The notes below the pieces were generated by a model. The model saw only the letters and a program-made list of their open reading frames with translations. It had not been told where the DNA came from and made no database searches. A DNA stretch of 28,665 nucleotides from Saccharofermentans sp. (GTDB taxonomy: Bacteria > Bacillota_A > Clostridia > Saccharofermentanales > Saccharofermentanaceae): assembly GCA_024695565.1 (NCBI GenBank), contig JAILHX010000033.1, positions 1-28,665 on the forward strand, in the 5' to 3' direction. A program made the position numbers and the translations under genes. This document shows, piece after piece, positions 363 to 18,774 of the stretch (the first letter of the stretch is position 1; the number at the start of each line of letters is the position of its first letter).

Positions 363-1766
363 CTATTTTTTGAGTTCCGGATACAAACTTGTATAAAACG
401 GAAGCATCGAGCAGAACACCTTGTCATCCATCAGGACAAGTGCCTGGTGTGTCTTGAGCGCTGAGAGGCTGTCCTGCGTTATGAGCGGTTCGTTCTCTAT
501 ATGGTCACCGTAATCGACTTGACGCATTCCGCATATTCTTCCGTAATGAAGATACGTCTCATAATCAAGAGTCCTGAAAAAGATCGTCGTACTGCAGTTC
601 GATGCCAAGGTGTTTGCCATCGCCGGTCCGAACAGATCTATAAGCTGAGAGTAGCTCTGCAGGATCAGGTGAATGCGTATGCCGTAAGATCTTCCAGCCG
701 TTATCAGTTCGCTGATCAACGGGATGGTCTTGCCGATAGTGCCGAACTCTTCGAGCAGGAAGGTAGTCTCAGTGGGAAGTCTGTTGTCGGGATGCTGTGA
801 TGCGGCCCTGAACAACTGCTGCGCAAACTGATTGCAGATGATTCCCGCAAGCTTGTCGTAAGCATGCGTATGAATCGGGATAACAATAAATACAGCGCAG
901 GGAGTTTTCCCGTTAAAACTGCTGATGTTAACGTCATCACCTGAGTGGAGTTTTCGCATGTCACCCGATCCGATAAACTTGGTCAGATGCGAATTAATAA
1001 CGGAGACAATATCGCGCAGCACTTTCAAATCGTTTGAAAGAGCGGCCGACATACCTTCTCTGGCGATTATTGCGACCTCATCGTCACCTTGAATATATCT
1101 TTCGATTTTCCTCAAGTGGGTCTGAATGTTTGAACCGCGAAAAAAACTTGGTTCATCCTCATCTTCCTCATCGTGAAACATCGGTACGCAGCCGTTAATA
1201 TGATTGCTGAGTGTAATAGGATTAACGTCGTTCAGAAATGTAGTCAGCGCAAGAAACACCGCTCTTGTGGTATTGAGTGCCGAGTTGTCCCAAAACGGAT
1301 CCTGCAAACGGATACCGGATTCTTTAAACAGCGCATCGAGGGTCGACTCGAGCAATTCAAAACCGATAGTCTTATCTTCCGGCTTGTCGCTCCTGAGAAG
1401 AATGGTGATATATGAGAAAATGTTGAACCTGAAGGAATGCTTCGGATCGGTCAGATCGATCACGATCTTTCTGTAATTCTTCGGAACGTGATTTCCTATT
1501 ACATCAAGGAGCTGACCTTTTGGATCGATCGCAATAAGAGACTTTCCTGCCTTGATCGTATTGTATGCTTCCGTGAGAGATCCGGAGGTTGTCTTTCCGC
1601 TTCCCGTGATGCCATAAGTAATGATGTGCCTTGTGGAACTATCCACGCGAACCTCGCCGTCAGGAGAACTGTAAACGACAGGACCGGGATTATACTTCTT
1701 GCCGTTAAACAGTTCTGATGTCTCTTCTCTGATCTGGTCTTTTTCAAGAAATCTTTTGTCTCTCAT
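363..1766 (-). CDS. VirD4/TraG-like P-loop ATPase, short soluble form
   Basis: The 467-residue protein carries a Walker A motif GITGSGKT (52-59) and a late Walker B-like FLLEEFG (336-342). The following stretch TAGRSYGI...LQSYSQLIDLFG is typical of the TraM-recognition part of type IV coupling proteins. Family members normally pump DNA or protein substrates at the inner membrane and are about 600 residues long with N-terminal membrane helices. This one begins only about 50 residues before Walker A and has no membrane helix, so it should be soluble. The usual Walker B aspartate is Glu (E339). Its ATG overlaps the stop of the preceding gene by four bases (ATGA), with GGAGGAATTGCC just before it, so the two are translationally coupled. 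It is the last gene of the cluster. No relaxase or secretion-channel gene is in view, so a conjugation role is doubtful. Confidence 0.8.
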   Translation of the reverse strand: MRDKRFLEKDQIREETSELFNGKKYNPGPVVYSSPDGEVRVDSSTRHIITYGITGSGKTTSGSLTEAYNTIKAGKSLIAIDPKGQLLDVIGNHVPKNYRKIVIDLTDPKHSFRFNIFSYITILLRSDKPEDKTIGFELLESTLDALFKESGIRLQDPFWDNSALNTTRAVFLALTTFLNDVNPITLSNHINGCVPMFHDEEDEDEPSFFRGSNIQTHLRKIERYIQGDDEVAIIAREGMSAALSNDLKVLRDIVSVINSHLTKFIGSGDMRKLHSGDDVNISSFNGKTPCAVFIVIPIHTHAYDKLAGIICNQFAQQLFRAASQHPDNRLPTETTFLLEEFGTIGKTIPLISELITAGRSYGIRIHLILQSYSQLIDLFGPAMANTLASNCSTTIFFRTLDYETYLHYGRICGMRQVDYGDHIENEPLITQDSLSALKTHQALVLMDDKVFCSMLPFYTSLYPELKK

Positions 1767-2173
1767 ATGGCAATTCCTCCTTCAATTATGTTGATGTCCA
1801 TCTCGTTTGACAGGTATTCGATAAGCTGATCTTTGCGTCTGCATAATTCAGGATCAAAAAGGATCTGAACATCAGCACTGTCCTTTAACCTGTTCGCCCA
1901 GCGGATTACCTGCTGCATCGATTCCTCTTCAAATGCATCTGAAATATCGCTTATATCAATAAGAACCACGCCATCGTAAGTGTTAGTCAGGATCGCCTCC
2001 GTGCTTAAAACAGAAAGCCGTTTTCTGTTTAAGGCAGGATCCTCAAGTGCTGTAACGGCAAGGCCGGGAGTCGGGTTAAGGATAACCCGGCCCTTGCTGA
2101 TCTCTTCCTTTGCCATACCGATTGCCAACTGTCCCAAGTCTTTTTCGACAGGTCGAAAACTAAGTCTTATCAT
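1763..2173 (-). CDS. hypothetical protein between ClpP and the VirD4-like ATPase
   Basis: The protein has 136 residues from the ATG at 2173, which I prefer because GGGGTG lies seven bases upstream. In-frame ATG (2179) and GTG (2182) codons are alternatives. I do not recognise it. It has no membrane helix or signal peptide. Alternating hydrophobic stretches such as YDGVVLIDISDI and DVQILFDPE look like beta strands of an alpha/beta fold and are followed by helices, but no nucleotide-binding motif is visible. It starts 15 bases after the clpP stop and overlaps the ATPase start by four bases. An adaptor or partner of the two enzymes is an inference from position only. Confidence 0.7.
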   Translation of the reverse strand: MIRLSFRPVEKDLGQLAIGMAKEEISKGRVILNPTPGLAVTALEDPALNRKRLSVLSTEAILTNTYDGVVLIDISDISDAFEEESMQQVIRWANRLKDSADVQILFDPELCRRKDQLIEYLSNEMDINIIEGGIAI

Positions 2174-2188
2174 AAGCATCACCCCACT

Positions 2189-2773
2189 TTATAGATCTTC
2201 CGGATAACCGATCTTGTCGACTATCCCGTACTTAAGAGCCTCTTTGGCTCCCATGATGTAATCGCGTTCGATGTCTTTCGCAATCTGTTTTGCCGAAGTG
2301 GTCGTCGTCTCGGCCAAATAATCAATCAAGTCGTTCTTTGCCTGCTTGCCCAATGTATAGGCAATCTCTGCATCTGTTACCTGGCCCGAAAACCCAATTA
2401 TCGGCTGATGTATCAGCACCTTCGCGCGGCTTGTGATATAGCGGGATCCCCTGGTTCCGGACGCCAGCAAAATGCTTGCCATTGAAGCTACAAGGCCTGT
2501 TGCGACAGTAGCGACTTCGATGCCGTTCTCCTGGCATTCGGTGATCGCATCGATCATGGCATTTCCGTCTGAGACAGAGCCTCCGGGGCTGTTGATCAGG
2601 ATTGTGATCCTGTCTTTTGACTTAAGCGCGAGGGCCTTCATGGTCAAAACAAACTCTGAAGCCAAAGGCGTCGATATCGGCTCGTCGATAGTGATCAAGC
2701 GCTGCTTGTTAGCCATAAGGTCTCTTACCGGGAAAACGCCGTCTTTCCCGTTTATCTTAGCGATTACATTCAT
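2189..2773 (-). CDS. clpP: ClpP-family serine protease (accessory)
   Basis: This 194-residue protein aligns along its whole length with ClpP, the barrel-shaped peptidase fed by AAA+ unfoldases. The catalytic triad is complete: Ser97 in GLVASMASILLA, His122 in LIHQP, and Asp171 in ERDYIMGAKEAL. These fall at the same numbers as in mature E. coli ClpP. The oligomerisation and substrate-loop motif INSPGGSV is at 60-67. The strand that in housekeeping ClpP supplies two tyrosines to the unfoldase-docking groove reads ITILIN here, so both are lost (Thr57, Leu59). The start has a strong AAGGAGG site. It lies 15 bases after the sigma-like gene and is followed by the 136-residue unknown and the VirD4-like ATPase. 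No clpX or clpC gene is nearby. A phage or plasmid style accessory ClpP is likely. Confidence 0.9.
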   Translation of the reverse strand: MNVIAKINGKDGVFPVRDLMANKQRLITIDEPISTPLASEFVLTMKALALKSKDRITILINSPGGSVSDGNAMIDAITECQENGIEVATVATGLVASMASILLASGTRGSRYITSRAKVLIHQPIIGFSGQVTDAEIAYTLGKQAKNDLIDYLAETTTTSAKQIAKDIERDYIMGAKEALKYGIVDKIGYPEDL

Positions 2774-2787
2774 AAGGTCCTCCTTTC

Positions 2788-3081
2788 TTATGCGCAGGTA
2801 TCGCGCCCGTCGCAGCCGTCCATGATGTAGTCGATGATCGCTTCCCTGATCTTGTTTTCGACATACTCGCGAAAACTAGTATCGGAAAATATACTGTATG
2901 AATCGATTGCATCTGTTATCGCCTTGGAAGCAACACCGACCATCTCGTCTCTGTCACCGATAGGAAGGCTGTCAATGATATCCAATGCGTAGTCGATGTT
3001 TTCAAGAGCAAGCTCTGTGATTGCATCGGGGTAACCGTTCTGTGCCATAGAAATAAGACTAAGTAAGCGATAGCGTTCCAT
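2788..3081 (-). CDS. small protein resembling sigma-70 region 2
   Basis: The 97-residue product starts at an ATG with an AAGGAGG site eight bases upstream. A longer reading frame to 3153 would run into the CAP gene and lacks such a site. The sequence is helical and follows the sigma-70 region 2 pattern. There is an A-x-x-G spacing with a following L and N (AQNGYPDAITELALENIDYA), an acidic DEMV where sigma factors have DLIQ, and then AITDAIDSYS...FREYVENKIREAI in place of the usual GL-KA-D-FD...FSTYA-W-IR-AI. Regions 1, 3 and 4 are absent, so it cannot recognise a -35 element as a normal sigma factor does. It might bind core polymerase or be a regulator derived from a sigma factor. The match is by eye, and the rest of the function is inference. 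Confidence 0.7.
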   Translation of the reverse strand: MERYRLLSLISMAQNGYPDAITELALENIDYALDIIDSLPIGDRDEMVGVASKAITDAIDSYSIFSDTSFREYVENKIREAIIDYIMDGCDGRDTCA

Positions 3082-3094
3082 AAATTTTTCCTCC

Positions 3095-4441
3095 TTAAAT
3101 GTCTGTCTGGTCTTCGCCGGGTACTTCAGCAGATGTTTCAGCAGGTACTTCATCCGGCTGTGTTTCTGTCGGTTCTACTGTTTCTGTTGTTTCAGATGTT
3201 TCTGGTGTTTCAGGTGCAGTGGTTTCTGCTGCGCCAGTTGGATAATCTGTGTATCTTTCCGCATAGGTTTCGCCGCATTTCGTACAACGGAAGTAATCGT
3301 ATTCATCGTTGTCACCGGTGTATTCCCAATCGTGTTCACAGCCGTTGTCGGGCGGTTCCTGTGGATACTGCGGTTCCGTTGGAACTGTATCTGAAGGTGC
3401 GGGCGTGGGTGTTGCACTGCCTACATATACGTCAATGGTCTCGTGACAATACTCACACTCTCTGACATCAATCAGGTTGTAGTAGTTATCTACCCGCTGT
3501 TCTATCGTTACCCAGTTGTGATGGCACTGATCGGGATCCTCGTAACCGGAGTCAGGACTGTATCCGTAATTACTTTGGATCTGTCCGTAACATGCATATG
3601 TTTTTCCGTTGTAATACAGCACGCCTACTACCGCATCTATCGAGCTTAAGCCCGCACTGCTGGTGCATCCACCCATGAGTAAGGCGTAGTGTCCGGGAGA
3701 GTTCTGCCAACAGTAAACTATGGCAGAAGCATCTACTTCACCGCCTGCGTTATAGAGGCATTCAGAACCCAAGCCTGAACCGCTTGCCGAATTGTGAGAC
3801 CAGTCTGTAATTATCTCTTTGCATCGTGTATGAGCTTTGTTCCACGCTTCTTCAGAGCTTGCCCTGACAATGGGAACGTAGTACACGCACTGACTTCTTA
3901 CAGCTTCTGCCTTGCGAAGCCCGTTTATGAGCTCGATACATTCGTCTTCGATATCGCTTCTGAAAACGTAATCGGAGGATGTCGCAGGCTCTACGGGAAT
4001 GTATTCGTCTTCATATATTTCCTCTTCGGTTTCAGCAGTTGACGTTGATTGCTCCCCGCTTGTTGCTTCCGGTGTTGAGACAGGTATGGAAATGCCTCCG
4101 GGAATCTGTCTGCTTTCAGAAGAACTGCTATCGTCTGCTTCATGAATATCAGCTGTAAGATCGCTGTCGGCTTCAGAAGTCTGAGCCTCGGTCTCATACG
4201 ATGACTGAATCTCTTCTGCAGATCCAGAGGACTCCGCCGGTTCTTCATTGGAAACCAATGCTTCTGCTATCTCCAGGTCGTCACAGCCTTCTGCCTGCAA
4301 TGTCTCGATGAGCTCGATCTCTTCCTGAGCGATCTCAACGCCGGCCGGCTGATTCTCTTCGTATAAATCGCAGCTTGCAAGTGGTACTATGGCAATCGCC
4401 GCTGCTAACGATACCGCACAAACCTTTACAAACCTTTTCAT
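3095..4441 (-). CDS. CAP/SCP-domain lipoprotein with cysteine-rich modules
   Basis: The 448-residue protein opens with a signal peptide and lipobox LASC, with lipidated Cys24. Residues 35-62 form a short acidic helical module. Residues 70-155 are Ser/Glu/Thr-rich and look disordered. A CAP domain follows at about 165-288, with the family landmarks His216 (WSHNS), Glu227 (GSECLYNAG) and WQNSPGHYALLM around His251. Two related C/H-rich modules come next (about 306-332 and 368-389), each with a CEH/CHH-x-W start and a later C-x-x-C pair, as in many clostridial surface proteins. The tail is Thr/Pro/Glu-rich. CAP proteins are secreted and are usually linked to adhesion or host contact, but their reaction is mostly unknown. 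It lies between the 47-residue gene and the sigma-like gene, 13 bases from the latter, so it appears to belong to the same transcript. Confidence 0.85.
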   Translation of the reverse strand: MKRFVKVCAVSLAAAIAIVPLASCDLYEENQPAGVEIAQEEIELIETLQAEGCDDLEIAEALVSNEEPAESSGSAEEIQSSYETEAQTSEADSDLTADIHEADDSSSSESRQIPGGISIPVSTPEATSGEQSTSTAETEEEIYEDEYIPVEPATSSDYVFRSDIEDECIELINGLRKAEAVRSQCVYYVPIVRASSEEAWNKAHTRCKEIITDWSHNSASGSGLGSECLYNAGGEVDASAIVYCWQNSPGHYALLMGGCTSSAGLSSIDAVVGVLYYNGKTYACYGQIQSNYGYSPDSGYEDPDQCHHNWVTIEQRVDNYYNLIDVRECEYCHETIDVYVGSATPTPAPSDTVPTEPQYPQEPPDNGCEHDWEYTGDNDEYDYFRCTKCGETYAERYTDYPTGAAETTAPETPETSETTETVEPTETQPDEVPAETSAEVPGEDQTDI

Positions 4442-4465
4442 AATGTTACCTTCTTTCTACTGTGA

Positions 4466-4609
4466 TCAAGCTGCCTGATTGAGTTCAGTGTCGCCTGATT
4501 CGCTGCCCTCTGCTTCTTTAAGAAGCTCCCAAATAGTGATCTGATGATGTTCTTCTTCAAGGATGTCCCAGATTGAGATCTGGCCTTTGATAACGTCGCA
4601 ATAAGTCAT
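4466..4609 (-). CDS. 47-residue protein with two tandem QIxIW motifs
   Basis: An ATG at 4609 with GAAAGGA eight bases upstream opens a 47-codon frame ending at TGA 4466-4468. Residues 10-20 and 23-33 are near copies: QISIWDILEEE and QITIWELLKEA. Each begins with a Q-I-S/T-I-W pentapeptide close to the beta sliding clamp binding consensus QL(S/D)LF. The rest is acidic and uncharged tail (ending ELNQAA), with one cysteine (C4). It is the first gene of the leftward cluster, 24 bases before the CAP lipoprotein start. Both the reading frame and the repeat are seen directly. Clamp binding is inference. It could instead be a docking peptide for another partner. Confidence 0.7.
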   Translation of the reverse strand: MTYCDVIKGQISIWDILEEEHHQITIWELLKEAEGSESGDTELNQAA

Positions 4610-4847: not shown

Positions 4848-5891
4848 ATGAGCAAAAAGGGCAAGACAAAATCAGACGTCATAGAGGACCTGAGAAGGAT
4901 CTACAGGGATATAAAAGACCCCGCGCTTATGTCTGCCCGTGATAAGAATATAAGTATATTTATTCTTTATGTGGCTACCATCTGCTGCAGGAATGAGACT
5001 GGCAAGCGAAAGGTCAGAAATGAGGGCTCCGGTTCAAACGGATATAAACAGCTCAGGGGGTATACTAACTTTCCCAAAAATGTATCCGGACCATGTTATG
5101 TTCTTTTTTCCAGGGTGATGAACGAAAAGAAAACCGACCGCTCCAAAGTCAAACCGAAAGATTTTGACAGGCTGAGCAATGCCGTGTTTTACAAATATGT
5201 GGTTAAGATCGATGGCAAAGAGACAGAAGATAACAATTTGTGGATTAACGATTTATTGACTGAAAATTATGTAGAGTTGCTGAATAATGATTCGTTGATT
5301 GAAGAAATGAAAGAAGATATCGATATCAGTGGATTGGATTCTTCCATCGACGATGAAGCACGTAAAGATTGTGATAAATTACAGCTATTTCCTCTAATTA
5401 AATATATTAATGAGAAATTAGCTATCGATCCGTGGGACAGGAGCAAGGAATATGTTGAAAGAATAGTCACAAGATATGAGTTTCATATCTTAGAAGAGCA
5501 TATTGATGAGTTAGAAGATTACGACGATTGGTTCGATGCCTACAAAGATTTGTGTCTTCCTAAAAGATTACTAGATGATTTAGTAAGGATTGCAAAAGGC
5601 GAATCTGCATACATGCCTATAACCATATACGAAGTCTTAAGCGAAAGCTTGAAGCAGAATCTTAGTGCAGAAAATGATTCCCGGCAGAAATATGCCCCGC
5701 TTGAATATATAAGAAATCTGGAAGAAAGAATGCAATACCGGTTTGACGGGATAAGTCCCACGCTTATAGATGACTGTTATAAGGATCTTATTAAAAGACT
5801 TGATAACAGCAGGAATTATGGTGATTGCAGGAAAAAGGAGCAGAGAGAAGCCAAGGGTATCCCTGTATTGGACATTCAAGTTAAGGCTTAG
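4848..5891 (+). CDS. hypothetical protein, 347 residues
   Basis: I do not recognise this protein. It has no signal peptide or membrane helix and is hydrophilic and charged. It starts with a basic stretch (SKKGKTKSD) and has a Cys-Cys pair near residue 46. A Gly/Tyr-rich segment follows (about 60-85, GSGSNGYKQLRGYTNFPKN). The long helical, Asp/Glu-rich remainder contains HILEEHIDELEDYDDWFDAYKD. The middle part is AT-richer in codon choice than the flanking genes, which suggests recent arrival. The ribosome site before the ATG is weak (GGGTAACGGTAC). It is transcribed away from the ClpP/VirD4-like cluster across a 238-base gap and ends before a hairpin terminator. An accessory or defence role is possible from position, but nothing in the sequence proves it. 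Confidence 0.65.
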   Translation: MSKKGKTKSDVIEDLRRIYRDIKDPALMSARDKNISIFILYVATICCRNETGKRKVRNEGSGSNGYKQLRGYTNFPKNVSGPCYVLFSRVMNEKKTDRSKVKPKDFDRLSNAVFYKYVVKIDGKETEDNNLWINDLLTENYVELLNNDSLIEEMKEDIDISGLDSSIDDEARKDCDKLQLFPLIKYINEKLAIDPWDRSKEYVERIVTRYEFHILEEHIDELEDYDDWFDAYKDLCLPKRLLDDLVRIAKGESAYMPITIYEVLSESLKQNLSAENDSRQKYAPLEYIRNLEERMQYRFDGISPTLIDDCYKDLIKRLDNSRNYGDCRKKEQREAKGIPVLDIQVKA

Positions 5892-5948
5892 AGACAGGGT
5901 AATCGCCCGAGACTCAAAAGTGTAGTCAAACACCCTCAAATACTCTCA

Positions 5949-5980
5949 AAAAAGTCTTTTCCCGGCAAAAGAGACTTTTT
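5949..5980 (+). terminator. hairpin terminator after the 347-residue gene
   Basis: AAAAAGTCTTTT, a six-base loop CCCGGC, and AAAAGAGACTTTTT form a stem with a two-base bulge that ends in a T-run. It follows the rightward gene by about 60 bases. It sits inside a cluster of GAGAC/GTCTC motifs (5891-6020), and CCC-GAGACT at 5905-5914 is mirrored by AGTCTCAGGG at 6015-6024. Confidence 0.5.
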
Positions 5981-6056
5981 CGAGTAGTACAATCACCCAA
6001 AACAGTCTCTTTTTAGTCTCAGGGTTTTCGAAGGGCCTTAATCACTTTTCTCACAC

Positions 6057-6090
6057 AAGAAAAACACGGCTATCGTGTGATAGCCGTGTT
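6057..6090 (-). terminator. terminator of the duplicated-domain secreted protein gene
   Basis: On the minus strand an 11-bp perfect stem (AACACGGCTAT / ATAGCCGTGTT) with a six-base loop is followed by TTTTTCTTG. It lies 25 bases past the stop of the gene at 6115-7029. Confidence 0.8.
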
Positions 6091-6114
6091 CGCATACTGA
6101 TTTAGAATAACTGA

Positions 6115-7029
6115 TTATGCGGCATAGAAAGAGATTTCATCACTCTCGGTAATTGTGCTGTAGCTGTCCGCATCAATAATCCTGAATGTCAACGTGATTT
6201 CTTCGACTGAAGTGATGTCGTTTTCTTCAAGTTCAGAACTCAAGAGTGTAATGCTGTCATAAGCCATCTTGCCATCATATACAGTAGAACTGAATATTGC
6301 AGAATTCATAGTGAATCCGTTTACTGAGAGATTATCTACATGGATAACAACATTTGTTCCGGAATTGTTCTCGATGTAGAGCAATACTGCTGCACCCCAG
6401 AAATCGGAATCATCAACATATTTGCCGACGATCTTGATGCCATCTTCCTCATACAATACCTGTCCTGCATCATCAACAGTTGTATCCATCTGATCATACA
6501 TTGATGTTCTGATCGTGATGCAATCGGGATCTGCAATTGCATCCCATGTATCTGAATCATAAATGTGGAAATAAATCTCAACTTGACCGATTGTCTCAAT
6601 GCCGGCTGCCTTGAGCTGAGATGACAACAGATTCATCGTCTCATTAGTTTTCTTTCCTGCAGCGACCTCGGCAACAAACAAGTCTGTAATCATATAATTG
6701 TTGACGATAAGAGCAGTACAACCAACGGTAATGTTCTGTTCGGTGTCATTCTCTATCAGGAACTTGATGCCATCACCCCAGATTGAATCACTTGTATATT
6801 CCTTGGCAGTAATCTTAACGCCGCCTTCATCATATACAACTTCTTCTTCAATAGTCGGTGTTGATGGTGCAGCCTCAGTAGTTGTTGTCGTAGCTTGTGT
6901 AGTTGAATCCGCATTTGTTCCCGAAGTATCCGAAATATCTTTCTTTGAACCTGAGGAACTGCTGCCCATAGCGAATGACATAAAAATGCTAATCGCCATT
7001 ATGATCGCTAAAACCTGACTTTTCTTCAT
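6115..7029 (-). CDS. secreted protein with two tandem copies of an unknown domain
   Basis: The 304-residue protein has a basic start and hydrophobic core (MKKSQVLAIIMAISIFMSFAMG) without a lipobox cysteine, so it is exported or membrane-tethered. A Ser/Thr-rich linker (about 23-62) leads to two tandem copies of a domain of roughly 110 residues. The first runs from VVYDEGGVKITAKEY and the second from VLYEEDGIKIVGKYV. They share the order W-G, (F/Y)-IEN, VN-(Y/F)-M, NLLSSQL/TLLSSEL, (E/T)-(I/L)-(Y/T)-F-(H/R)-I-D, and D-I. The pattern looks like a beta-sandwich, and no catalytic motif is visible. A strong GGAGG site for this gene lies inside the end of the upstream membrane gene, with a 41-base overlap, so both are co-transcribed. 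It ends with a clear terminator. Function is unknown, and a surface or envelope-stress role is inference. Confidence 0.75.
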   Translation of the reverse strand: MKKSQVLAIIMAISIFMSFAMGSSSSGSKKDISDTSGTNADSTTQATTTTTEAAPSTPTIEEEVVYDEGGVKITAKEYTSDSIWGDGIKFLIENDTEQNITVGCTALIVNNYMITDLFVAEVAAGKKTNETMNLLSSQLKAAGIETIGQVEIYFHIYDSDTWDAIADPDCITIRTSMYDQMDTTVDDAGQVLYEEDGIKIVGKYVDDSDFWGAAVLLYIENNSGTNVVIHVDNLSVNGFTMNSAIFSSTVYDGKMAYDSITLLSSELEENDITSVEEITLTFRIIDADSYSTITESDEISFYAA

Positions 7030-7429
7030 ATAATTTACCTCCTCGAATTATTAGGATTGCCAATAAACTTCCAAGAATATAAACAATCCCATCAACTATA
7101 TCTGCTGTTCCGGGAGCGATTCCGAAACGTTGCATTAATTCAAAAACAATCCCCAGCAAGCTGCAAAAAACTAAAAAAACTGTCTTTTTCTTTTCGGTCC
7201 AAACAATCAATTGAATAACTAATGTGAATGAAACTGACCATAAGAAATCCGCACCGAAGCTTCTAAGGATTGTTAAAACAAAACTATTGCCGGTATTTAT
7301 CTGAATTGGGATTATCTCTAATAGAACCTTTGAAACATACGCATCTCTGTTTAGCAAAAGGTATAGTAACAATCCCAGAATCAACATGATTACACTGATG
7401 ATTAAGAGTATTGCTTTTTTCTTATTCAT
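6989..7429 (-). CDS. small VanZ-like membrane protein
   Basis: The 146-residue protein has four predicted membrane helices (about 7-27, 55-77, 82-99, 109-129) and a hydrophilic end. The stretch FELMQRFGIAPGTADIVDGIVYILGSLLA resembles the E-x-x-Q...D-x-x-D...G pattern of the VanZ/VanZ-like fold, whose members are linked to low-level glycopeptide resistance and envelope physiology but have no established reaction. An in-frame TAG lies directly before the ATG, and the nearest AAAGGAGG is about 18 bases upstream, unusually far. The gene overlaps the start of the duplicated-domain gene by 41 bases. A terminator-bearing leader region lies upstream at 7500-7646. The family call is by eye and moderate. 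Confidence 0.6.
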   Translation of the reverse strand: MNKKKAILLIISVIMLILGLLLYLLLNRDAYVSKVLLEIIPIQINTGNSFVLTILRSFGADFLWSVSFTLVIQLIVWTEKKKTVFLVFCSLLGIVFELMQRFGIAPGTADIVDGIVYILGSLLAILIIRGGKLYEEKSGFSDHNGD

Positions 7430-7920: not shown

Positions 7921-8349
7921 TTAGTTCAGAGGCTCAAACTTGTACTCTTCAAGAAGGCCGTTCAATTCCATGATGCTCATCTTCTTGTTGATCGCATAGA
8001 TTACCAAGCTGTCGCGGCGGCTCTTGGCATAGAGGATGCCTTCCTGCGCTATCTCAAGTGCGCGCTGGCATTCGGGAAGAGTCATTCCGCAGGCGATTGC
8101 GATTGCAATGATCTTGTCTCTGCCGGGATGCTTGCTGCCATCCATGATCTGATAGATGTAGTTTCGGTCGATGCCGCTCTTCTTCTGCATGTCGGCAATG
8201 CTCATGCCTCTTTCCTGGAGGACCGCCTTAACGAATGAACTGAAATCATCAGGATACTTGCCCCTGATCTCTTCGAGGTAACGCTCGAGTTCTTCCGGAG
8301 TATCCGTCGATGTCAGTTTGTTCATCAGGTCACCGGTTTTGTCTGTCAT
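7921..8349 (-). CDS. XRE-type helix-turn-helix regulator paired with a kinase
   Basis: The 142-residue cytoplasmic protein has an N-terminal helical part. An XRE/Cro-type HTH follows at about 37-92 (ERGMSIADMQKKSGIDRNYIYQIMDGSKHPGRDKIIAIA). A conserved-looking C-terminal helix region comes after it (LYAKSRRDSLVIYAINKKMSIMELNGLL). Its start has GAGAGGAAG eight bases upstream. It is transcribed away from the serine/threonine kinase gene, with 29 bases between the two starts, and a TGTTAT-N4-ATAACA palindrome lies there. The pairing suggests that the regulator controls both genes and may be a substrate or partner of the kinase. That link is inference. Several Ser/Thr residues in its N-terminal and C-terminal parts could be targets. 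Confidence 0.85.
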   Translation of the reverse strand: MTDKTGDLMNKLTSTDTPEELERYLEEIRGKYPDDFSSFVKAVLQERGMSIADMQKKSGIDRNYIYQIMDGSKHPGRDKIIAIAIACGMTLPECQRALEIAQEGILYAKSRRDSLVIYAINKKMSIMELNGLLEEYKFEPLN

Positions 8350-8364
8350 AGTAACTTCCTCTCG

Positions 8365-8390
8365 ATTATAATTGTTATATGCATAACATG
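8365..8390. promoter_or_regulatory. overlapping divergent -10 boxes and operator-like palindrome
   Basis: Plus-strand TATAAT at 8367-8372 and minus-strand TATAAT at 8365-8370 overlap in ATTATAAT. Next to them TGTTAT (8373-8378), four bases and ATAACA (8383-8388) form a perfect inverted repeat that covers the kinase start codons. A dimeric XRE protein bound here would block the kinase start and probably its own promoter. No good -35 box was seen for the plus direction. Confidence 0.55.
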
Positions 8391-9428
8391 TCCGAGTACA
8401 AAGAATTATATCACTACGATAACAAGCGAAGCCTGGTCATGAATGAGATGACGGGGGACATTCGCATGATGAAGCGTCTCGAACATTACGATGAGAATGT
8501 TTATGCATATCTTGCTTCTCACCCGGACAAACACATACCCGCTATCTATGAATTCTACAGGGATGCGGACAACACACTTATAGTCCTGGAAGAATACATT
8601 CAGGGCAATACTTTCGATATCCTGATAAACGATCAGAAGATGCCTGACAAGCAAAAGCTCAGTTACTTCATCGAACTGCTCGAAGGCTTGTCATTCCTGC
8701 ACAGCGCGCCGAACCCGATCATACACAGAGACTTGAAGCCTCAGAACATAATGATCACGGAAAAGGGCGAGGTCAAGATCCTGGACTATGATGCTGCCAA
8801 GATATATAAGCCCGGCAACACCGGCGATACAACTTACCTGGGCACTGACGGAATCGCAGCTCCCGAGCAGTATGGCTTCATGCAGTCCGATCCGCGGAGC
8901 GATGTTTTCGCCGTCGGCAAGATGCTCGAAGCAGCGTTCCCAAATAACTCCAGGATCCGGCAGGTCGCCGCCAAAGCATCAAGCTTCGATCCGAATAACC
9001 GTTACGTCAACGCGCGTGATCTGTGTGACGTTTTATCGAAGCGCTTAAGCCCCAGATTAAGGCTCAAACCGCCCTTCCCGCCACCCGGTTTCCGTACCGG
9101 CAAATGGTGGAAGATCATGCTCGCAGTCATCGGTTACCCGTTCCTCATTATTACCGTAATCACTTTGAGATCAGACAATAATTCCGCTCTCGAGAACCTT
9201 GCACTGAAGCTGTTTTTGGGATTCTTCATATTGATCGCGCTCGACATCTGCTGCTCATGGACGGGTCTATTCGACTTTCTGCCCTTCGTCACGCATGATA
9301 ACCGCTTCCTGCGCTATCTGTTCAAATTCCTGTTCGTGATTGCAGCACTTATAGTCCTGCTAATCGTTGAAACATGCATTCTCACAGTCATCGCTCACTT
9401 CGTTCCCGTCTGGGGACATTCGTGGTAA
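8379..9428 (+). CDS. membrane-anchored serine/threonine protein kinase
   Basis: The 349-residue protein has a eukaryotic-type kinase domain (about 15-222). Visible landmarks are Lys32 in RMMKRL as the likely ATP lysine, HRDLKPQN (116-123, catalytic Asp118), DYD (136-138) in place of DFG, and APEQYG (161-165). The N-lobe is short and shows no glycine-rich loop. After a Pro-rich link (PPFPPPGF) come three membrane helices (about 245-263, 276-294, 312-335), so the kinase faces the cytoplasm. There is no extracellular PASTA domain, unlike PrkC/Stk1. No ribosome site precedes ATG 8379 or the in-frame ATG 8388, and a TATAAT ends six bases before 8379. The mRNA may therefore be leaderless. The target is unknown, and the divergent XRE regulator is the obvious candidate. 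Confidence 0.85.
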   Translation: MHNMSEYKELYHYDNKRSLVMNEMTGDIRMMKRLEHYDENVYAYLASHPDKHIPAIYEFYRDADNTLIVLEEYIQGNTFDILINDQKMPDKQKLSYFIELLEGLSFLHSAPNPIIHRDLKPQNIMITEKGEVKILDYDAAKIYKPGNTGDTTYLGTDGIAAPEQYGFMQSDPRSDVFAVGKMLEAAFPNNSRIRQVAAKASSFDPNNRYVNARDLCDVLSKRLSPRLRLKPPFPPPGFRTGKWWKIMLAVIGYPFLIITVITLRSDNNSALENLALKLFLGFFILIALDICCSWTGLFDFLPFVTHDNRFLRYLFKFLFVIAALIVLLIVETCILTVIAHFVPVWGHSW

Positions 9429-14314: not shown

Positions 14315-15928
14315 TCAGAGCAACGGTGTGTCGTTGTGCTGCGTTCTCGGGCTCTTCTTAACATGTATGAACATGTTGTGGAGGAGGTTAACGCTCGTTA
14401 AGATAACTTCACCCTGATTGAGCTTTCTGACGTGCTTGATGGCATAATCGTCGAGGTGGCTCTCTACAGTCCTGATCTCATCGTTGAGCATGAGTCTGTG
14501 GATGAGCATCGTACCGATCTGACCGAAGAGGATCGGAGATACGTCCTTCGGGTTCTGTGTTGTCAGGTAGAGGAAGATACCCTTCTTACGGCCTTCTCTT
14601 GCGAGGAGTGTGAGACCGCCGTGGTATTCCTTGTCTGAATATCTGGACTTGGCATATCTGTGAACCTCGTCGATGAAGAATACGAACGGGCAGATATCTT
14701 CTCTGGACATAACGAAAGTACTTACGAGGTCGATGACCATGCCGCCGATACCTTCGGAAGCACCGAGTTGTGATGTATCGATGTAAAGGCTCTCTTCAGG
14801 CAGACGGAGGAACTCCTCGATTACGTCGAGAAGGTTGTACATGCCGGGATCGTTGGAGAAGAATGAGAGGAACTTTGTGTTCGTCATCTGATACTGGATC
14901 TTCTGAACGAGACCTGAGTTGAGGTTTGCCTTGAGCGTATCGTAGCAGTATTTGAAGTTGTAGTTGTTGTCTCTGTCAGGCTCACGAACGGATTCAGCCT
15001 GGATCTGCTCAGGAAGGAGCTCGATGTTGAAGTCTGTATCGTCCTTGCCGACGGAAGCGATGTTCTCCTGAACTTCCTCGATGTCCTCACCGACCTTGCT
15101 GTAATATGTGTCCTCACCGATCTTCTTCATGTAACGGAGGGATGTGATAGCCTCGGAGAGAACTGCGCCCTGGCTGCTGTTCTCGGTCTCGAAGAGCTTC
15201 TCCCACTGCTCCATGTTGATCTTGCCGGGTGATACAGTTGTGTCAACACCAAGTGTGAGCTTAGTGATCTCATCGTTGGAGAATGCGTTTCTGTACTCGC
15301 CTGTAGGGTCGATGATGAGGGCCTTCTTCCTTGTGGAGACGACCTTATCGAGGATAGCGAGAGCTGTTGTGGACTTACCGCTGTTCGTAGCGCCGATGCA
15401 CATGAGGTGACGGTTGAAGAGCGTGCTGGGCTTGAGAACAACGTCAGCCTGAGATCTGTTGAGGTATGTAGCAAATGAAGGAAGAGGTTCCTCTTGTTCG
15501 TTGGTGAATTCAAGTGACTGGAGGAAGAGCTCGTAGATCTTGTCTGTTGCAAGGTAGACCTTGTCGGTAATGCCGAGGGTCTTAAAGCCTGCGAGCTGGA
15601 ACTTCTTGGCCTCAGGTGTCATGATCGCGATAGTATCGATCAGGATCTCCTGGTAATCGCTCGGCTTCATGTCGCCGTTAACATCGAAGATGTTCTTTCT
15701 GGAAGCCTTGTTCTCAAATACTTCACCCAGGAAAACGCCTACTGTAGATTCGACAAGTACGAAATAGTTGATCGTGTTAGGAAGAAACGAGCTGTTGAAC
15801 CTGCTTCTGTCAGACATCAAAGCGAAATTGTCGATCTGTGCTGTGCTGTTACTTCTGTAAACCTGCGTTACTTTTCCGATGTAAAAGTCCTGTGGATTCT
15901 TACCGTCATAAAGTTCTTCAAGTGTCAT
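14315..15928 (-). CDS. HerA-like hexameric DNA-translocase ATPase
   Basis: The 537-residue protein has an N-terminal barrel-like part (HAS-barrel type, about 1-100: FYIGKVTQVYRSNST...VGVFLGEVF) and a DUF87/HerA-type RecA-fold motor. It shows Walker A GATNSGKS (179-186), DPTGEYR (208-213), Walker B FVFFIDEVHRY (D420, E421) and TTQNPKDVSPILFGQIGTMLIHRL. HerA family rings translocate DNA and usually work with a NurA nuclease in archaea, or with SIR2 or nuclease partners in bacterial phage defence. No such partner is adjacent here: the gene has its own leader and terminator, and both neighbours point away or are separate. The start has GGGAGGCG seven bases upstream. A role in DNA processing is probable, and the substrate is unknown. 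Confidence 0.85.
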   Translation of the reverse strand: MTLEELYDGKNPQDFYIGKVTQVYRSNSTAQIDNFALMSDRSRFNSSFLPNTINYFVLVESTVGVFLGEVFENKASRKNIFDVNGDMKPSDYQEILIDTIAIMTPEAKKFQLAGFKTLGITDKVYLATDKIYELFLQSLEFTNEQEEPLPSFATYLNRSQADVVLKPSTLFNRHLMCIGATNSGKSTTALAILDKVVSTRKKALIIDPTGEYRNAFSNDEITKLTLGVDTTVSPGKINMEQWEKLFETENSSQGAVLSEAITSLRYMKKIGEDTYYSKVGEDIEEVQENIASVGKDDTDFNIELLPEQIQAESVREPDRDNNYNFKYCYDTLKANLNSGLVQKIQYQMTNTKFLSFFSNDPGMYNLLDVIEEFLRLPEESLYIDTSQLGASEGIGGMVIDLVSTFVMSREDICPFVFFIDEVHRYAKSRYSDKEYHGGLTLLAREGRKKGIFLYLTTQNPKDVSPILFGQIGTMLIHRLMLNDEIRTVESHLDDYAIKHVRKLNQGEVILTSVNLLHNMFIHVKKSPRTQHNDTPLL

Positions 15929-17163: not shown

Positions 17164-18720
17164 TCAGGCGCCGCCTTCTGTCATCTGTTCGTATGTGATC
17201 CCGTACTTGACCGCAATGTCCTTTGCAAACGACGTCGTGTCGGGCTCGGCGCGCTTTAAGATAAAGGTGTTCTCGTCGTTTTTGCGCTCCATGACGATGC
17301 TGATGATCTTGCTTTTCCCCTCCCAGGCATCCATCTCGGGAATGCTCTTGGCGAGGTCATGGATGTGCGTATTGAAGATGACGTAAGCGCCTCTCTCCTT
17401 CAGGACATGGATCAGTTCCTTCGACAGGAACAGACCGTCGGTCGCAGATGTCGTCGAGAAAGTCTCGTTAAAAAGGAGCAGAGTGTTATCGTCAGAAGCC
17501 TTTACGAGCTCTTTGATCCTTATCGCTTCTTCGCCCAGACGGCCATAATTGATAGTGAGATTCTCGTCTATCGGATAGTGCGTCAGGATGTTGGTGAACG
17601 GCAGTCCGGTGCAGGATTTAGCGGTCACGAACATGCCGAGTGACATCATGACGGACATAATGCCCAGACCCTGCTCGAGGATCGTCTTGCCGCCGCGGTT
17701 AGGTCCGGTCAGAATGAAGATGCGCTCGTCGTCCGTGAATGCAAAATCGTTCTTGACGATATTCTCCTCGCCCTTGACAGCAAGCCTTATGTTGTAGAAA
17801 TCACCGGCTCTGAACCTGCCCTTCTGATCATCCCGGATCTCCGGGAAAGTTATCTCATAACCCCTGCTCTGAAGCTTTCTTCCGATCTCGGCAGTCTTCA
17901 TGTAGAACGTCAGGCTCCCGAACATCTCGGTTAAGAACCTGCTGTCGTAATTGGTATATTTTGCGAGCATCCTCTTGATCTCGGCATACTGCTTCCTGAG
18001 GTGCTTCTCGAGCTTGGGCGTGATCGCCGCCAGGAGCGGATCCGGCTGCTTGTACTTGACCTTGCTGAAGGGTGAATTGATCTTGGTCGTCAGCGTGATG
18101 TCAACGAGGTTATAAGCCGACCTGATCCTGTTCGGAACGAACTCGATCGCCGTGACGTCTTCGATGTTGAGGTCGGGCGTCAGGTTGACGCCGATGATGG
18201 CTCCCCTTGCGACCGAGAGGTCAGAAAGCATCGTCTTGATGTCCTCTTTGGCGATGCTGAATTTCTCGTCGGTAATGATCTTCTCCAATGAATCGCGGAG
18301 CGAGATAAGGCCTGCTGATGCTATATTGTTTTCCTTGAGCTGCGCGAAAATATCCTCGATGACATTTACGTAAACAGACAGCTCTCTTAACTGCTCTAAG
18401 ATCGTGTAGAGCGTGGTGTCCCTGTCACTTACGGCCTTCTTCATTCCGCCGTAGTAGATGAGGGTCTTAAGGCCGTCCAATGTCTCGGTCATGGAACTAC
18501 AGAGAGCTTCATTGTTCATGAAGTCTTTTGTGATCTCCTGGCGGAAGATAATGTCCTCGGGATCGCACGGAATGGAAGACATGATTTCCTTTAAAAGCTT
18601 GCGCTTCTCGGAATCCATGCTCATAAAATTAATGACCTCGCTTAATGCGACATCCTTAACAGTCTCTTCGGAAAGCTTAACGGCCTTTTTATCTGAGCCT
18701 TCTCTAAACAGCAGATCCAT
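17164..18720 (-). CDS. MutS-like ATPase lacking the mismatch-recognition domain
   Basis: The 518-residue protein (ATG at 18720, with GGGGG seven bases upstream; an in-frame start at 18753 lacks a site) has a helical lever/clamp region. The C-terminal ATPase resembles MutS: Walker A GPNRGGKT (339-346), then LLLFNETFSTTSATDG, then the switch-like FNTHIHDLA. MutS itself has TGPNMGGKS and DE-GRGT. Here the Walker B aspartate is Asn (N418), as I recall from other members of this short clostridial subfamily, while the catalytic Glu419 is kept. The mismatch-binding domain I is missing, and there is no Smr nuclease. A role in branched-DNA handling rather than classical repair is inference. It has no obvious operon partner. 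Confidence 0.85.
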   Translation of the reverse strand: MDLLFREGSDKKAVKLSEETVKDVALSEVINFMSMDSEKRKLLKEIMSSIPCDPEDIIFRQEITKDFMNNEALCSSMTETLDGLKTLIYYGGMKKAVSDRDTTLYTILEQLRELSVYVNVIEDIFAQLKENNIASAGLISLRDSLEKIITDEKFSIAKEDIKTMLSDLSVARGAIIGVNLTPDLNIEDVTAIEFVPNRIRSAYNLVDITLTTKINSPFSKVKYKQPDPLLAAITPKLEKHLRKQYAEIKRMLAKYTNYDSRFLTEMFGSLTFYMKTAEIGRKLQSRGYEITFPEIRDDQKGRFRAGDFYNIRLAVKGEENIVKNDFAFTDDERIFILTGPNRGGKTILEQGLGIMSVMMSLGMFVTAKSCTGLPFTNILTHYPIDENLTINYGRLGEEAIRIKELVKASDDNTLLLFNETFSTTSATDGLFLSKELIHVLKERGAYVIFNTHIHDLAKSIPEMDAWEGKSKIISIVMERKNDENTFILKRAEPDTTSFAKDIAVKYGITYEQMTEGGA

Positions 18721-18745
18721 ATCAAAACCCCCGTGATTTGTATTA

Positions 18746-18774
18746 TTACACAAACAGAGACGACATTGTATAAT
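18746..18774 (+). promoter_or_regulatory. promoter of the zinc-ribbon/ABC operon
   Basis: TTACAC (18746-18751), 17 bases and a perfect TATAAT (18769-18774) stand about 25 bases before the GGAGGG site of the zinc-ribbon gene. Confidence 0.5.

Follow-up and report, generated by a model that had tools for sequence, protein, structure and literature searches.

A ClpP paralogue with an altered Clp-ATPase docking pocket encoded beside a VirD4/TrwB-type ATPase without a membrane helix in a probable accessory operon of Saccharofermentans sp.

A contig of Saccharofermentans sp. encodes, at its left end, a ClpP paralogue from a lineage in which, judged from sequence, the Clp-ATPase binding surface is changed and the catalytic residues are kept. 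The gene lies in a cluster of six together with a gene for a VirD4/TrwB-type ATPase without a membrane helix (Table 1). In this study, we analysed positions 1 to 28,665 of contig JAILHX010000033.1, a stretch of 28,665 nucleotides that we refer to as the window. We tentatively read the protein as an accessory-operon ClpP with a re-made docking face, possibly partnered by the operon's own motor. In the usual view, ClpP relies on AAA+ Clp ATPases. A docking-altered, conserved ClpP lineage beside a VirD4-type motor opens to direct test the idea that the ClpP chamber can be driven by a motor of a different superfamily, and coupling-protein motors gain a possible role outside DNA transfer. The main parts each belong to known families, and their combination was not found among the literature matches listed, nor as a close relative in the genome, viral and plasmid collections by the pattern-based and BLAST searches used.

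Table 1. Features at the left end of the window
Feature	Positions	Strand	Characteristics
IS30-family transposase, last 40 codons	2..124	+	Cut at contig edge
VirD4/TrwB-type ATPase, 467 aa	363..1766	-	Walker A, Walker B, all-alpha-domain region; no membrane helix
136-aa protein, family unassigned	1763..2173	-	C-terminal half predicted alpha/beta, low confidence
ClpP paralogue, 194 aa	2189..2773	-	Ser-His-Asp intact; Clp-ATPase docking pocket altered; 3-residue insertion
97-aa protein	2788..3081	-	Partial sigma-factor region 2 likeness; region 4 absent
448-aa lipoprotein	3095..4441	-	Lipobox LASC by eye; weak CAP domain; two CxxC modules
47-aa peptide	4466..4609	-	Twofold repeat QISIWDILEEE / QITIWELLKEA; family: none

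The ClpP protease named in the original prediction was borne out by Pfam PF00574 (CLP_protease, E 2.5e-44, 151.8 bits vs a cut-off of 20.2). It fell below the NCBIfam cut-offs of TIGR00493 (119.1 vs 308.6) and PRK00277 (135.3 vs 249), and also of its best NCBIfam model, PRK12553 (143.7 bits vs 228); indeed, none of the matched ClpP and head-maturation models had its cut-off reached. Relatives at 85, 58 and 51% identity formed with it a four-member clade, which stood on a long branch with support of 100/100 in a tree that combined P0022-P0085, from the 120 listed matches, with 18 others (82 sequences in all), its placement among the other ClpPs being unsettled. The Ser-His-Asp triad was complete in all four members and in all 116 of the other ClpPs. 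No Clp ATPase gene was found among the window proteins scanned.

The docking pocket of the four clade members was compared with that of the 116 other listed ClpPs in an alignment with Ruminococcus albus ClpP, using what we take to be the E. coli residue numbers of the pocket and their mapping onto the alignment. The pocket residues were defined from the available portions of PMC6853987 and PMC8182300. The Tyr62 column, which holds Tyr in 107/116 others, contained Leu/Ile/Phe/Phe in the four members, the change to Phe in two of them being mild. Thr replaced Leu114 in 4/4 members (Leu in 108/116 others), and the Thr79 column read Ala/Val/Ala/Met (Thr in 103/116). Phe49 was replaced by Ala/Ser/Cys/Asp, where the 116 others have Phe in 72 and Tyr in 40, and the Phe82 column held Glu/Glu/Asp/Phe, with Tyr in 49 and Phe in 41 of the others. 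A 3-residue insertion just N-terminal to the pocket-lining strand was present in 4/4 members and 0/116 others.

Across the alignment, 85 columns were conserved in 80% or more of the other 116 ClpPs, and 25 of these were lost in all four members. The loss affected 8/10 pocket columns compared with 17/75 elsewhere (Fisher p 6.5e-4, to be read with the caveats that columns are not independent, that the four sequences represent one clade and that the N-terminal alignment is uncertain). Eight of the 17 non-pocket columns lie in N-terminal residues 5-25, and in three of the eight lost pocket columns Ile is exchanged conservatively: for Leu/Val/Val/Cys, for Val/Val/Met/Cys and for Val. Clade members lose six or seven of the seven key pocket residues. 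At least five of the seven are also lost in 9/116 other ClpPs, and thus pocket loss has happened elsewhere too. These results suggest that the cluster ClpP may not engage ClpX as other ClpPs do; if so, it would rely on a different motor, pair with a second ClpP ring or work without a motor. An altered pocket is what would be expected of a ClpP that works with something other than an ordinary Clp ATPase.

The nine other ClpPs that lose at least five of the seven residues are P0026, P0029, P0034, P0037, P0070, P0071, P0100, P0113 and P0132. Some are on long contigs (P0100: 261,989 bases), and these ClpPs, like that of the cluster, may have unusual partners.

The motor of the cluster matched Pfam T4SS-DNA_transf (E 7e-31), and both the nucleotide-binding domain, with Walker A and B, and the all-alpha domain were present. 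A crude hydropathy test gave a best 19-residue value of 1.23 and no membrane helix, in agreement with the soluble VirD4-like ATPase that had been predicted. The description of this motor as stripped of membrane helices therefore stands as to the helix, but the feature is not peculiar to it: counting the protein of the window itself, 16 of the 18 VirD4 proteins analysed lack one. The nearest curated family was CD1115 VirD4 (NF045973; E 4.5e-52, 177.4 bits vs a cut-off of 250). An IGF tripeptide (TIGFELL) in the VirD4-like protein was considered as a Clp-type docking loop and rejected, as it occurs in 2/5 family members only. PADLOC matched the motor to mad8 only (30.5 bits) and none of the other five proteins; it gave no set, and the reading of the cluster as a known anti-phage system was rejected.

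We then searched a large protein database with the VirD4, 136-aa and ClpP proteins. The best non-self relatives were full-length at 82% (VirD4, 466 aa), 77% (136-aa protein, 136 aa; the one relative known besides itself) and 85% identity (ClpP, 196 aa), and the longest contig reported for each of the three measured 51,313 bases. From this equal size we infer that the three lie on one contig in a second lineage, a chance match being very unlikely. For three VirD4 relatives further removed (55, 45 and 43% identity), the longest contigs had 6,085, 27,105 and 41,224 bases, and no ClpP on a contig of these sizes was among the 120 matches listed of 1,602. Similarly, the ClpP relatives at 58 and 51% had longest contigs of 2,763 and 3,233 bases, and none of the 18 VirD4 relatives found was on a contig of either size. 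The co-occurrence that had been proposed as a check is thus seen in the second lineage but not with the three distant VirD4 relatives, among the 120 of 1,602 ClpP matches listed. These results indirectly support a ClpP-VirD4 pairing in two lineages, with a wider spread unsupported.

Other collections were also searched. Genome contigs scanned with the ClpP and VirD4 alignments, and viral contigs scanned with the VirD4, the CAP lipoprotein and the 136-aa protein, yielded no relatives; the method is seeded by few short exact patterns and can miss relatives, and the ClpP genome scan missed even ordinary ClpPs. The ClpP alignment recovered 339 relatives from viral contigs, of which 80 were kept (28-43% identity). 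When the cluster proteins were compared by tblastn with 83 loci, no second member was found except the plasmid VirD4 of locus L003. A VirD4 profile run against 40 of the 80 viral records whole gave one 23-position match (E 7.5e-4), which was taken as chance. In tblastn against plasmids and phages, ClpP reached at best 41.7% and 42.3%, and VirD4 about 25%. The 136-aa and 97-aa proteins had no plasmid tblastn match at E 1, and the 47-aa peptide had no match in the plasmid collection at E 10. Among the best-ranked literature matches, including the available part of PMC5357655, no description of a ClpP-VirD4 gene pair was found; the ClpP in the accessible text of PMC3485107 lies between phage head genes.

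Six open reading frames stand in tandem on the minus strand from 4609 to 363, where a six-gene cluster had been predicted. In cluster order the first four gaps measure 24, 13, 14 and 15 nt, and the last two genes overlap by 4 nt. The 136-aa gene starts at ATG 2173 or alternatively at GTG 2182, with its stop at 1763. AGGAGG lies upstream of the 97-aa, ClpP and VirD4-like starts; the lipoprotein gene has AGAAGG, the 47-aa gene AAAGGA and the 136-aa gene a weaker GTGGGG. The short gaps and the overlap agree with one transcription unit, as originally proposed; the purine-rich ribosome sites, described there as strong, vary in strength, that of the 136-aa gene being weaker.

To the left of the cluster, 362 bases remain before the contig end. 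They start in the C-terminus of the IS30 transposase, which matched one Butyrivibrio plasmid record (55% over 38 aa, E 2e-4), with an alignment that extends to the C-terminal end of the Butyrivibrio protein. The genes to the right are mostly ordinary chromosomal ones (pantothenate kinase, ECF transporter, GGDEF/EAL, MutS-like, HerA-like, ABC). GC3 was 0.443-0.605 in the six cluster genes, 0.327-0.42 in the next three genes (4848-7429) and 0.587-0.816 in 15 genes further right. Because GC3 is low compared with the genes further right, the first 7.5 kb looks accessory, although at 0.605 the ClpP gene falls within the range of the chromosomal genes. The cluster is probably an accessory operon brought in by a mobile element. 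Within the window, no RNA family reached its gathering score, no tRNA was found, and repeat and promoter scans added nothing.

Some neighbouring genes are recorded here in their own right. A 347-aa protein without a Pfam match is encoded at 4848-5891, divergent from the cluster in the low-GC DNA. At 7921-9428, a divergent HTH regulator and a Ser/Thr kinase similar to those of mad6/PD-T4-6 are possibly a defence pair. A HerA/DUF87-family ATPase (14315-15928; PADLOC HerA E 3.5e-54) lies among the chromosomal genes, and a MutS-like ATPase (17164-18753) was below all cut-offs, the best NCBIfam model being KamC at 70.8 bits vs 300.

The cluster might instead derive from a conjugative or mobilizable element, as a fragment of it or as its cargo. 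The VirD4-like protein would then be a coupling protein for a relaxase and channel encoded elsewhere, and ClpP would be cargo or serve motor turnover; we consider this doubtful, though nearly as likely as the motor pairing. The IS30 end at the contig edge, the low GC3 of the cluster and the nearness of the motor to CD1115 VirD4 (177 bits, cut-off 250) favour it, as do the surroundings of five plasmid VirD4 genes, read over 9 kb on either side and in some cases poorly annotated: some transfer-type gene was annotated in 5/5, a relaxase in two and VirB4 in two. A ClpP was annotated in none of the five, which speaks against the motor pairing. There is also a precedent for motor turnover: according to the available part of PMC4969725, the jammed coupling protein DotL of Legionella is degraded by ClpAP. 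Against it, no relaxase, VirB4, integrase or channel gene was found in a scan of 19 proteins encoded to the right of the cluster (short ORFs left out). The predicted lack of relaxase and channel genes thus holds for the right side, which is the side that the scan covers, while the left side ends at IS30 within 362 bases. The motor also lacks the membrane helix that several coupling proteins need; in the portion of PMC7431656 available, TrwB, PcfC and MobB variants without it fail, and a TcpA variant works less well. Finally, the three genes are full-length at 77-85% identity in the second lineage, which argues that the cluster is not decaying.

A paralogous ClpP ring could also pair with the host's own ClpP, which is a point against the motor pairing. 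ClpP1/ClpP2 systems with unequal pockets are known and offer a precedent, and the catalytic residues of the cluster ClpP are conserved. The two ClpPs would form mixed tetradecamers, a host Clp ATPase would dock on the other ring, and the operon would merely alter cleavage specificity. The host housekeeping ClpP is encoded outside the window, and we regard this explanation as unlikely. Less likely still is a ClpP that works without an ATPase, like phage head maturation proteases, and cleaves a precursor protein or a product of the cluster, for example the sigma-like regulator: the altered pocket, the best PHROG (PHROG 94, head maturation, E 2e-28; ATP-dependent protease PHROG 1827 at 7e-12) and a match to NF045542 below its cut-off (69.6 bits vs 120) speak for it, but NCBIfam ClpP models outscore head-maturation models, no phage structural family was found among the proteins scanned, and in the tree four distant phage ClpP-like proteins branch apart, on a long branch of their own.

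The small partners were less readily classified. The 97-aa protein matched NCBIfam FliA_WhiG over residues 43-86 (E 5e-5, 23.1 bits vs a cut-off of 189.6) and five SigI models far below cut-off; there was no Pfam sigma match, and regions 2 and 4 fail the sigma-70 cut-offs. Its predicted sigma-like character is thus backed by weak NCBIfam region 2 matches but not by Pfam. The 448-aa lipoprotein has a hydrophobic N-terminus and acidic, Ser/Thr-rich linkers. A motif seen by eye, SH..E..W.NSPGH, is presumably CAP-like, and PF00188 matched at E 0.025 (15.9 bits vs 21.1). The protein probably carries a CAP domain; the lipobox and motif favour the CAP lipoprotein originally described, and the PF00188 score falls short. 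Nothing found ties the proposed protease and motor to export or to the CAP lipoprotein, and the suggested export route or surface-protein system is unsupported. The structure model of the 136-aa protein had a pLDDT of 51.5, with no PDB match at E 0.001 and weak small-GTPase and STAS-like rows, so that no fold was named.

Returning to the motor-paired ClpP, the paralogue keeps its catalytic residues with the ClpX/ClpC/ClpA pocket and N-terminal region changed, and its working partner would most likely be the same-operon motor, with the 136-aa protein perhaps an adaptor between the two. By analogy with HerA-type motors that stack on effector rings, a ring of the motor would act as gate or feeder for a ClpP ring. 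Complexes of HerA-type relatives with enzyme rings were among the matches listed for the motor, and a motor-gated ClpP is thus a reasonable first hypothesis, although one of low confidence. We infer ring formation, contact between ClpP and the motor and the protein or DNA that would be fed or sensed, as well as roles for the sigma-like protein and the CAP lipoprotein. The earlier suggestion that the motor may feed ClpP gains from the kept triad, the altered pocket and the linkage of three genes in the second lineage, but loses from the nine of 116 other ClpPs that lack at least five of the seven key pocket residues. In its stronger form, the hypothesis describes a novel ATP-dependent protease whose ClpP ring is powered or gated by a VirD4/TrwB-type DNA or protein translocase in place of an AAA+ Clp unfoldase, the two meeting at the re-made docking face with the 136-aa protein as adaptor; this we consider improbable.

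Compared with ClpP (peptidase S14), the cluster protein shares the Pfam family, the triad and the length, and differs in its docking pocket, its 3-aa insertion and its scores below every ClpP model cut-off. The motor shares Walker A/B and domain order with CD1115 VirD4 but is under that cut-off, has 467 aa and no membrane helix, and its neighbourhood, readable on the right, is without relaxase or VirB4; compared with the TrwB/VirD4 coupling ATPases (PDB 1e9r, 1e9s), it is naturally without the N-terminal membrane domain. The ClpAP-DotL system, as presented in the available part of PMC4969725, likewise brings a ClpP together with an ATPase of the coupling type; in Legionella, however, ClpA unfolds and DotL is the substrate. 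In contrast to HerA with its effector rings (SIR2-HerA, HerA-DUF4297, HerA-NurA), the cluster carries no defence annotation as a set, its motor is nearer TrwB, and its effector would be a protease.
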